NCBI GenBank assembly: GCA_014621425.1 | Contig: JAANBB010000161.1 | Span: 1-64,000, forward strand | DNA: 64,000 nt | Source: Cylindrodendrum hubeiense | Lineage: Eukaryota; Ascomycota; Sordariomycetes; Hypocreales; Nectriaceae | Direction of reading: 5' to 3' | Shown: piece after piece, positions 34,419 through 37,726 of the stretch | How positions within the stretch are numbered: position 1 is the first letter of the stretch | How the letters are laid out: each line of letters starts with the position of its first letter | Position numbers and translations under genes: made by a program | The notes under the pieces: model-generated | Seen by the model: only the letters and a program-made list of their open reading frames with translations | The model's database searches: none | Told to the model about the DNA's origin: nothing

Positions 34419-36425
34419 ATGATGGCATGCCTTACTAGCACGCCAAAGGGCCTCGATGCCCTCCTAGAAGGGCTCTCTCTGGATCCATTGCCTCAATACG
34501 TATCGAATGATGCTCTTACCAGACCTGTTGGAATATGGCGATCCTACTTCGCAAAGTTTCTTTCCACGGTAGTGGACTGTGAGGAGGCTGCGATCCAGGA
34601 AGCCATCAGCTCAACAACAGAAACCTCTCTCGGAGACTTGGCTCTCATTTTACCTCGGCTCAAGCTGAAAAATATTGACAACAATGGTCTAAAATCTTTG
34701 GCTTTTGAGATAGGTGAACGGGTTTGTCACACCCTGTCTCCAAACCTTCACACTTGATTCAGCCTAACTTGCACATCTTAGCTTCCTACTTCGCCGCTTT
34801 TCTTGCCCCCCTGGGTTGATGGCATCCATCTTCGGATGTTCTTTTCTCCAGATACTCTCCCCCGGCTCCTTCTCCCGTACATCAGAGATCGGAAATCGTT
34901 ATACGGCCATGACTTGTCCCAAGGCCTCCGGGATCCAACGTTGCCTGACCAGGGCAAGAAGAAAGTCATCGTGGAATTCTCCTCTCCAAATGTTGCTACT
35001 GATTTTGATGGTAACCACCTTCGAAGCACCTTCCTGGGCGCCTTTGTTGCCAACATTTACGAGGCCATGGGATGGGAGGTGGTACGCCTCAACTACCTCG
35101 GCGACTGGGGCAAGCAAATTGGCTTGCTTTCTGCGGGATATGAAAAATTCAGTTCTGATGAGAAGTTGCAAAATGGTGGAATCAATCATCTGCTAGAAAT
35201 CTACGCGAAGATTGAAGAACTATTCAGACCAGAACAAGACGCAAGGGAGAAAGCAAAACAGGACAAACAGAACACCGCGGATATTGAAGGAAAAGGTATC
35301 TTCGCTCAAAGAGACTCGATTGTAAAAAGTCTGGAAGACGGTGATGAAGCAGCTCTTGCGCTATGGCAGCGCTTCCGAGACATCACTATTGACGAACTTA
35401 ATCTCGGGTACGGACGTCTGGGCGTCAAGTTTGACGAGTACTGGGGCGAATCAGAGGTCAAACCCAAGACAATTGTTGAAGTTGAAGACACACTGAAAGA
35501 GAAAGGTGTCCTTGAAGAGAGCGATGGGTCGTGGATGGTTGACTTTGTGAAGCATGCTGGGAAGAAAGGTCTCGGTACGCAAATTGTTCGAGGTCGTGAT
35601 GGCTCCACACGCTATCTCCTGCGAGACATTGCTGGAGCACTCGATCGCTCACGCAAGTTCGAATTCGACAAGATGATCTACGTGGTGTCTTCGAGGCAGG
35701 ACAACTATTTCCAGCAATTGTTCACATCTCTCGAACTGATGGGCCTCTCGGATCTCAAACAGAAGCTCCAGCATGTCAATTTTGGCTCCATCCAAGGACT
35801 CAAGGGCAGCCTGCTTTCCAACATCCTCAACCAGTGCGCGATTGGAATTCATGATGCTCTGCGAGAGGAACATGGTGATAGTGATATCGACAGCGACGGT
35901 GTTGGGTCCATCAGTGACATGTCTCTGGTCAGCGGGTTGCTCGCCCAGGATATGTCTGGAAGGAGGGGGCACAGCTACACCTTTGACCCAAAGAAAATAG
36001 CGTCTTCTAGCTCTCATACTGGCTTGGTGTTGCAGGCATGCCACAGAGTGTTGAATGCCTCTATCGACAAGTTGAACACTAGCGATGTCGAGGCTGCTGA
36101 GGTAGACTACACTGCGTTGAGCGATGATGACTCTGCCGATCTGCTACGGCTCATGGCGCAATTTCCTGATGTTGTTGCAGCAACTTATAAGTCGTTGGAG
36201 CCTCACACACTCCTTAGCTACTTGTACAAAGTTGTCAGTTCGTTGTCTATCCTGGGCGAAGGAGAGGATGAAGAATTCGAAGGTGAGGGTGATGAAGGCG
36301 GACCTAGTGAAGCATGCGAGAAACCCAGTTTGGAGGAGAAGAAGGCGCAGCTCTTTCTGTATCAGAATGCACAGCAGGTCTTGGAGAATGGGATGAGACT
36401 ACTAGGATTTCCAGTTGCTTCATAG
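34419..36425 (+). CDS. Arginyl-tRNA synthetase paralogue with degenerate catalytic signatures
   Basis: A 648-residue protein in two exons (34419-34721 and 34782-36425); the intron is GTTTGT...TAG with a CTAAC branch. It has the full class Ia ArgRS layout: N-terminal Add1-like domain, Rossmann core (KVIVEFSSPNVA, ANIYEAMGWEVVRLNYLGDWGKQIGLL, DGSTRYLLRDIAGALDR, YVVSSRQDNYFQQLF) and C-terminal DALR domain ending NGMRLLGFPVAS. The HIGH-equivalent, normally HAGHLRST, reads DGNHLRST (residues 177-184), so the first His and the Gly are lost. The KMSK-equivalent loop, normally GMSTRKGT, is shortened to GLKGSLL. An acidic insert sits before the last helices. Aminoacylation is therefore doubtful. It may be a pseudo-enzyme or a repurposed paralogue beside a canonical ArgRS elsewhere in the genome. 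Confidence 0.85.
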
Positions 36426-37152: not shown

Positions 37153-37157
37153 AAAAA
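37153..37157 (-). terminator. Pol III terminator, tRNA-Phe copy A
   Basis: Five T residues on the minus strand, ten bases after the tRNA 3' end. Confidence 0.7.
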
Positions 37158-37166
37158 GGTATTGAT

Positions 37167-37293
37167 TGCGGTTTATGTGGATCGAACACATGACCTTCAG
37201 ATCTTCAGTCTGACGCTCTCTGTCAGTGAAGGTTAGTGATATGACTCGAAGAGGGATTATTGTGACAACATACCCCAACTGAGCTAAACCCGC
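37167..37293 (-). tRNA. tRNA-Phe(GAA), copy A, with 54-nt D-loop insert
   Basis: Read on the minus strand. The 20-nt first part (37293-37274) is GCGGGTTTAGCTCAGTTGGG, containing an intact box A. The second part (37219-37167) starts AGAGCGTCAGACTGAAGATC and holds the anticodon loop CTGAAGA (GAA), variable loop AGGTC and T-arm ATGTG-TTCGATC-CACAT (box B), and ends AAACCGC-A. Joined, they give a normal 73-nt tRNA-Phe; the G5-A68 mismatch in the acceptor stem is shared by all three copies. The insert (37273-37220) begins GTATGT, has TCACTAACC near its end and finishes CAG, like a spliceosomal intron. The canonical position 37/38 carries no intron. A T5 run follows the gene. CCA is not encoded. 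Confidence 0.9.
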
Positions 37294-37366
37294 TTGGATG
37301 AAAGACGAGATGCTTCATGTGGATTATGTTCCCAGGCTGAAACACCAAGGCAACAAAATGGAGAAC

Positions 37367-37374
37367 AAAAAAAA
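37367..37374 (-). terminator. Pol III terminator, tRNA-Phe copy B
   Basis: Eight T residues on the minus strand, eight bases after the tRNA 3' end. Confidence 0.75.
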
Positions 37375-37381
37375 TGAAGTG

Positions 37382-37508
37382 TGCGGTTTATGTGGATCGA
37401 ACACATGACCTTCAGATCTTCAGTCTGACGCTCTCTGTCAGTGAAGGTTAGTTATTTGTCTCGGAGAAGGGAAGTTGTAATGACGTACCCCAACTGAGCT
37501 AAACCCGC
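37382..37508 (-). tRNA. tRNA-Phe(GAA), copy B, with 54-nt D-loop insert
   Basis: Exonic parts 37508-37489 and 37434-37382 are identical to copy A. The insert (37488-37435) begins GTACGT, has AACTAACC as a branch-like site and ends CACTGACAG. Its middle differs strongly from copy A while both ends are conserved. A T8 run follows as a Pol III terminator. Confidence 0.9.
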
Positions 37509-37583
37509 GCTTGTGATTCGGAGGCTTCAGTCTTCCCTATTTATTCTGTCTCGTTCCAGATTGGCAAAGAAGGAAAGATCACC

Positions 37584-37590
37584 AAAAAAA
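37584..37590 (-). terminator. Pol III terminator, tRNA-Phe copy C
   Basis: Seven T residues on the minus strand, nine bases after the tRNA 3' end. Confidence 0.75.
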
Positions 37591-37598
37591 GAAATCGA

Positions 37599-37726
37599 TG
37601 CGGTTTATGTGGATCGAACACATGACCTTCAGATCTTCAGTCTGACGCTCTCTGCCAGTGAAGGTTAGTGATTTGCTTGGAGTGAGGGATTAATGTGTGG
37701 ACATACCCCAACTGAGCTAAACCCGC
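37599..37726 (-). tRNA. tRNA-Phe(GAA), copy C, with 55-nt D-loop insert
   Basis: Exonic parts 37726-37707 and 37651-37599 match copies A and B. The insert (37706-37652) begins GTATGT, has TCACTAACC and ends CACTGGCAG. The single A-to-G change near the end keeps a possible G-U pair with the D-arm. A T7 run follows. The three genes lie in tandem on one strand at about 215-bp spacing. Confidence 0.9.

Follow-up and report, generated by a model that had tools for sequence, protein, structure and literature searches.

How can a nuclear tRNA gene that is interrupted in its D-loop by what resembles an mRNA intron give rise to a tRNA? Canonical nuclear tRNA introns lie at position 37/38. Three tRNA-Phe(GAA) genes in the 64,000-nucleotide stretch of Cylindrodendrum hubeiense DNA analyzed here (the window), together with their relatives elsewhere in the genome, resemble the canonical cases in that a nuclear tRNA gene is interrupted. 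They differ in that the junction is at position 20/21 rather than 37/38, the introns measure 53-57 nt and carry spliceosomal signals, and the anticodon loop is uninterrupted.

The split tRNA-Phe(GAA) family

The three genes of the window (Table 1) have identical exons of 20 and 53 nt, including the discriminator A. The inserts follow GTTGGG, between tRNA positions 20 and 21, and the splice junction can slide by one base, being read either as GGG/GTATGT...CAG/A (20/21) or as GG/GGTATG...CA/GA (19/20). A preliminary description of the window had proposed three tandem genes with identical exons of these lengths, D-loop inserts of 54, 54 and 55 nt after GTTGGG, inserts with an initial GTATGT or GTACGT, ACTAACC about 15-17 nt before the end and a terminal CAG, and T5-T8 terminators. 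The coordinates on the (-) strand bear out the genes and their inserts, the signals are present, with the A of the branch-site match CTAAC 13 nt from the last base of the intron, and runs of seven, eight and five T were read after genes a, b and c. ARAGORN (bacterial settings) called no tRNA in the window, and the Rfam models gave no match there at gathering score. A histidine kinase frame of the window matches, in its residues 1-450, a protein of Cylindrodendrum hubeiense (Nectriaceae) at 100% identity and 98% coverage, in keeping with a very probable origin of the genome in that species or a very close relative. About 740 bases from the tRNA-Phe cluster, positions 34782-36425 (+) of the window encode arginyl-tRNA synthetase catalytic and DALR domains.

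Table 1. Positions of the split tRNA-Phe(GAA) genes of the window, of two further tRNA-Phe loci and of the U6 snRNA genes
Feature	Position	Strand	Details
tRNA-Phe(GAA) gene a, split	37599..37726	(-)	exon 1 37726-37707, intron 37706-37652 (55 nt), exon 2 37651-37599
Gene a D-loop intron, GTATGT...CACTAAC...GCAG	37652..37706	(-)	
Gene a T7 run, presumed Pol III terminator	37584..37590	(-)	read directly
tRNA-Phe(GAA) gene b, split	37382..37508	(-)	exon 1 37508-37489, intron 37488-37435 (54 nt), exon 2 37434-37382
Gene b D-loop intron, GTACGT...AACTAAC...ACAG	37435..37488	(-)	
Gene b T8 run, presumed Pol III terminator	37367..37374	(-)	read directly
tRNA-Phe(GAA) gene c, split	37167..37293	(-)	exon 1 37293-37274, intron 37273-37220 (54 nt), exon 2 37219-37167
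Gene c D-loop intron, GTATGT...CACTAAC...ACAG	37220..37273	(-)	
Gene c T5 run, presumed Pol III terminator	37153..37157	(-)	read directly
Split tRNA-Phe, intron unlike the others save for splice signals	C295:14944-15070	(+)	
Decayed split tRNA-Phe copy	C31:41605-41731	(-)	
U6 snRNA gene with 58-nt spliceosome-type intron	C41:36727-36888	(-)	
U6 snRNA gene, uninterrupted	C450:12981-13083		

Genome-wide, nine tRNA-Phe(GAA) loci were found: seven intact split genes (the three of the window, in C70, and one each in C444, C295, C13 and C111), one decayed split gene (C31) and one intronless gene (C557). A query of the whole genome with the joined exons gave 14 matches, corresponding to these nine loci, and an 18-mer from the anticodon arm recovered the same nine with eight exact matches and one with a single mismatch; at two to three mismatches it gave 60 further matches, compared to 34 for the reversed control. 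The preliminary description had held that many intact tRNA-Phe(GAA) genes elsewhere, together with an absence of spliced RNA, would count against its reading; a single intact unsplit gene is present among the nine loci. That gene, C557, appears intact from its sequence, with paired changes at 4:69 and 49:65 compared to the split genes (the T stem being GTGTG/CACAC in C557 and ATGTG/CACAT in the split genes) and a T5 run. Its joined D-loop reads GTTGGG-AGAGC, the junction expected from the split genes. In a scan of genome contigs, the D-loop was likewise joined in 22 of 22 prokaryotic records carrying the same 28-mer, and two scans of viral contigs for tRNA-Phe relatives gave no match. One record, PBGD01000032.1, titled as a Flavobacteriales MAG, contains a tRNA-Phe that shares the 28-mer and the T arm with the split genes of the fungus; this record may include contaminant DNA from a eukaryote or an archaeon.

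Split tRNA genes may escape annotation, as ARAGORN and Rfam missed or miscalled them here: outside the window, ARAGORN called no tRNA in the sequences containing C444, C295, C13 or the decayed C31, and miscalled C111 as tRNA-Ser. In tRNAscan-SE 2.0, as described, non-canonical introns are analyzed for candidates of the archaeal model (PMC8450103). Two tRNAs of about 130 nt (C87:49861-49990 and C168:187907-188037) were called Phe(AAA) by ARAGORN, and by eye they resemble tRNA-Ser(TGA) genes whose anticodon loop is interrupted by a long intron.

A search for split genes in other isotypes used patterns for the same junction after box A. The pattern TRGYNNARNNGG followed by GTRNGT gave 24 matches, compared to 33 in the reversed control; three of the 24 had a loose box-B match within the tested stretch, and of the four printed none resembles a tRNA 3' half by eye. 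With one more G after TRGYNNARNNGG there were 13 matches (control 7), seven of them the known tRNA-Phe genes; of the other six, two were read and neither is tRNA-like. The patterns were limited to two D-loop geometries, and 63 of 1,339 tRNA candidates were scored, 59 listed and part of these read, so that split genes in other isotypes are possible.

Splice signals, exon conservation and predicted folding

The features taken to define a U2-type intron (5' GTRNGT, CTRAY near the 3' end, a YAG end, and a length within the range of the organism) were found in all seven intact introns. The 5' splice site is GTATGT in four, GTACGT in one and GTAAGT in two (GTANGT overall), the branch site is CTAAC, whose A lies 12-13 nt from the final base of the intron, and every intron ends in CAG. 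For each intact intron, none of 200,000 shuffles contained the three signals together. The lengths and branch-site distances fall inside the range seen in a set of 14 candidate mRNA introns from the window, identified by a rule of ours under which open frames are linked and loosely matching signals required. The candidates range from 44 to 90 nt in length, with a median of 53.5, and nine of the 14 have the branch A at a distance of 9-13 nt from the intron end. The two sets do not match in every respect, however, since no candidate mRNA intron begins with GTATGT or GTACGT and ten of the 14 end in TAG.

The intron of C295 is, in our reading of the sequences, the strongest evidence on the splicing system. 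Compared to the six other intact introns, it matches at 13-14 of the 14 signal bases, with the signals at nearly the same spacing, whereas outside the signals 19-24 of 43-46 positions match. Shuffled means were 20.9-22.7, and the observed level was attained by 27-263 of 300 shuffles, indicating chance similarity. This intron may have diverged to saturation while its signals were held, or it may be a separate intron at the same site. In the decayed copy, C31, the initial GT has become TT (TTATGT) and the CAG has become TAC, CTAAC is kept, and exon bases have also changed; having lost both splice sites along with exon pairing, this copy can be regarded as a natural control. Six of the seven intact introns share CTTCACTG before RCAG, a feature that splice signals alone do not explain and that recent common descent could. 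A search for an intron donor with ACTAACCTTCACTGRCAG gave no match at zero to one mismatch outside tRNA-Phe, and at up to three mismatches gave 55 matches compared to 75 in the reversed control.

The 73-nt exons of six split genes are identical, and those of C111 differ at two positions. In pairwise comparisons the seven intact introns show between 4 and 25 substitutions and, in addition, between 0 and 48 gap columns. The flanks of the split genes are mostly dissimilar; the exception is the upstream flank shared by C13 and C111, with 13 differences in 60. Because the exons have remained identical while the introns diverged, the simple reading is that selection on the mature tRNA keeps the exons alike; gene conversion that spared the introns is hard to picture. 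The joined exons show the features of a functional tRNA-Phe(GAA), namely stems, boxes A and B, and a T-run. All four cloverleaf stems pair except for a mismatch at 5:68, which is a family trait, since it occurs in all seven intact split genes and in C557.

For the joined exons, the predicted energy of the cloverleaf is -16.3 kcal/mol in six genes, -18.9 in C111 and -0.5 in the decayed C31. The predicted minimum, calculated for unmodified RNA, is another fold (-19.2 kcal/mol in six genes, -19.9 in C111). The precursor is also predicted to fold otherwise, at -30.8 to -35.1 compared to -13.3 with the cloverleaf, and in C111 at -32.9 compared to -15.9. In six of the seven intact introns the 3' portion, ACCTTCACTGRC, has complementarity to the anticodon arm of its own tRNA, on both sides of the arm, and six of the seven folds predicted for the intact genes show the sequence that follows the branch site paired with it. 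A role of this pairing in blocking premature tRNA folding would be attractive but is not proposed here: 41-354 of 1,000 shuffles equaled the best duplex between intron and exon 2, and the stretch is absent from C295.

Routes of intron removal

We infer that the split genes are transcribed by Pol III, that the spliceosome removes their introns, and that the introns originated by reverse splicing followed by gene duplication. With exon 1 containing box A and exon 2 containing box B, TFIIIC and Pol III would transcribe the split gene, and Pol III would stop at the T-run. U1 and U6 would then read the GTANGT 5' splice site and U2 the CTAAC branch site, the intron would be excised as a lariat, and the spliceosome would join GTTGGG to AGAGC to give an ordinary tRNA-Phe. 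It is highly probable, judging from these sequence features, that the tRNA-Phe(GAA) genes are working Pol III genes with U2-type spliceosomal introns at 20/21.

The inserts might instead be non-canonical tRNA introns that the tRNA splicing endonuclease cuts via a bulge-helix-bulge (BHB) motif, in which case the splice-like signals would be coincidental. A D-arm intron with an hBHBh' motif, at position 12/13, is described for Cyanidioschyzon merolae tRNA-Ile(UAU) (PMC9602550), and BHB motifs are reported for archaeal non-canonical tRNA introns (PMC8450103). The introns at 20/21 are likewise D-arm introns, the genome contains two endonuclease-family matches, and for other tRNAs of this genome, e.g. 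Leu(CAA) and Arg(TCG), ARAGORN places an intron in the anticodon loop. Unlike the C. merolae and archaeal introns, however, those of tRNA-Phe have full spliceosomal signals and no BHB above chance. None of the seven intact genes has all three BHB elements in either junction phase, and 179-604 of 1,000 shuffled introns attained the best score, two of three elements, in an analysis that had no known BHB as a positive control; for five copies in one junction phase, the score was reached by 192-738 of 2,000 shuffles. Coincidental triple signals in seven introns are not credible, even though six of the seven share descent, and cleavage by the endonuclease is very unlikely. The evidence supports the preliminary description, which proposed that these tRNA introns could be processed by the spliceosome or along a new route. 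Of the two it favors the spliceosome, short of showing it, because C295 keeps only the signals, C31 has lost its splice sites, BHB motifs are at chance level, and an intron of the same kind interrupts one of the U6 genes found in this genome.

The split genes might also be dead copies, multiplied by duplication once one of them had acquired an intron, with C557 supplying all tRNA-Phe. The seemingly intact state of C557 and the clear decay of C31 are in keeping with this, and the existence of one intronless gene means that the split genes need not be essential. Nevertheless, six split genes have retained identical exons despite the divergence of their introns, and the decay of exons and splice sites, which coincide in C31, is absent from the other split genes. 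Phe makes up 129 of 3,021 residues (about 4.27%) in six open frames of the window, and the related Neonectria lugdunensis is reported to have 207 tRNAs (PMC11433043). By analogy with the count in this relative, eight intact genes of about 200 would suit the demand for Phe and one intronless gene would not, and we see little chance that the split genes are dead. A further alternative is that the genes form part of longer non-coding Pol II transcripts, from which the inserts are spliced like any Pol II intron, the tRNA being cut out afterwards. This would provide a capped route to the spliceosome, and three of the genes are in tandem, but the other four intact genes lie on four separate contigs with T5-T7 runs, and the sequences of boxes A and B are intact in all seven. 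In S. pombe, moreover, U6 is described as a Pol III transcript that can be spliced (PMC8917221), and passage of the tRNA-Phe genes through Pol II transcripts seems most improbable.

Introns in other Pol III genes and implications of the split tRNAs

Two U6 snRNA genes were found among the 47 of 2,596 candidates that were scored. One of them, C41, matches the model with 65.1 bits over positions 1-105 and contains a 58-nt insert with the form GTGAGT...TACTAAC...CAG, located between ACAGAGAAGAT and TAGCATGG. Over the 451 nt read at this gene there is a single B-box match, GTTCGAGCC, which lies inside the intron. In the uninterrupted C450 gene the B-box match is about 220 nt downstream of the ACAGAG box, a place that the stretch read at C41 does not reach, so that C41 may have a second one. 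Schizosaccharomyces U6 introns reportedly contain a B-box match as well (the title of Frendewey et al. 1990 says so), and the C41 gene resembles them in this respect. Spliceosome-type introns, as identified by their signals, are thus present in two Pol III gene families of this genome, tRNA-Phe and U6. No sign of an intron was seen in the 5S genes, of which 47 of 47 listed are 120 nt long; only the best 47 of 2,450 candidates were scored, so that a split 5S gene could be missed. RNase P, SRP and MRP RNA gave one match each, with no candidate intron by our loose filter, which finds a candidate in 166 of 500 random 440-nt pieces of the window (the strict filter in 6 of 500). The RNase P match spans 422 nt compared to 301 model positions, and the MRP match 440 nt compared to 266.

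The S. pombe U6 gene contains an mRNA-type intron in a Pol III transcript and, as described, the spliceosome removes it (PMC8917221); a reverse-splicing origin is suggested for the intron (PMC8917221, PMC10484740). The tRNA-Phe genes resemble it as short Pol III genes for a non-coding RNA that contain an intron of the mRNA type, with removal by the spliceosome being probable here. They differ in that the host is a tRNA and seven intact genes are affected. The U6 intron of S. pombe is close to catalytic nucleotides of the spliceosome, which provides a reason for reverse splicing into U6, whereas tRNA-Phe has no such obvious reason. Reverse splicing into U6 seems to have occurred in the present genome also. 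U2-type introns and a Pol III host gene (U6) were already known; the combination of a tRNA host with a spliceosomal route is not known to us, and we did not find it described. A search of the open-access PMC literature, with most subscription papers and preprints outside its scope, found no described spliceosomal intron in a tRNA gene.

We think it likely that most genes of the tRNA-Phe(GAA) family are matured by the spliceosome, tying the translation of Phe codons to spliceosome capacity, and that the D-loop introns arose by reverse splicing into Pol III RNAs, possibly twice at one site. If this is true, U1 and U2 must be able to recognize an uncapped Pol III tRNA precursor either ahead of tRNA folding or in spite of it, and the family would offer a clean system for studying the entry of spliceosomal introns into new genes. 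Maturation through the spliceosome would also constitute a new category of tRNA route. The splicing of tRNA and that of mRNA are treated as separate systems, with different enzymes, substrates and origins, and a spliceosome-dependent tRNA family would join them.
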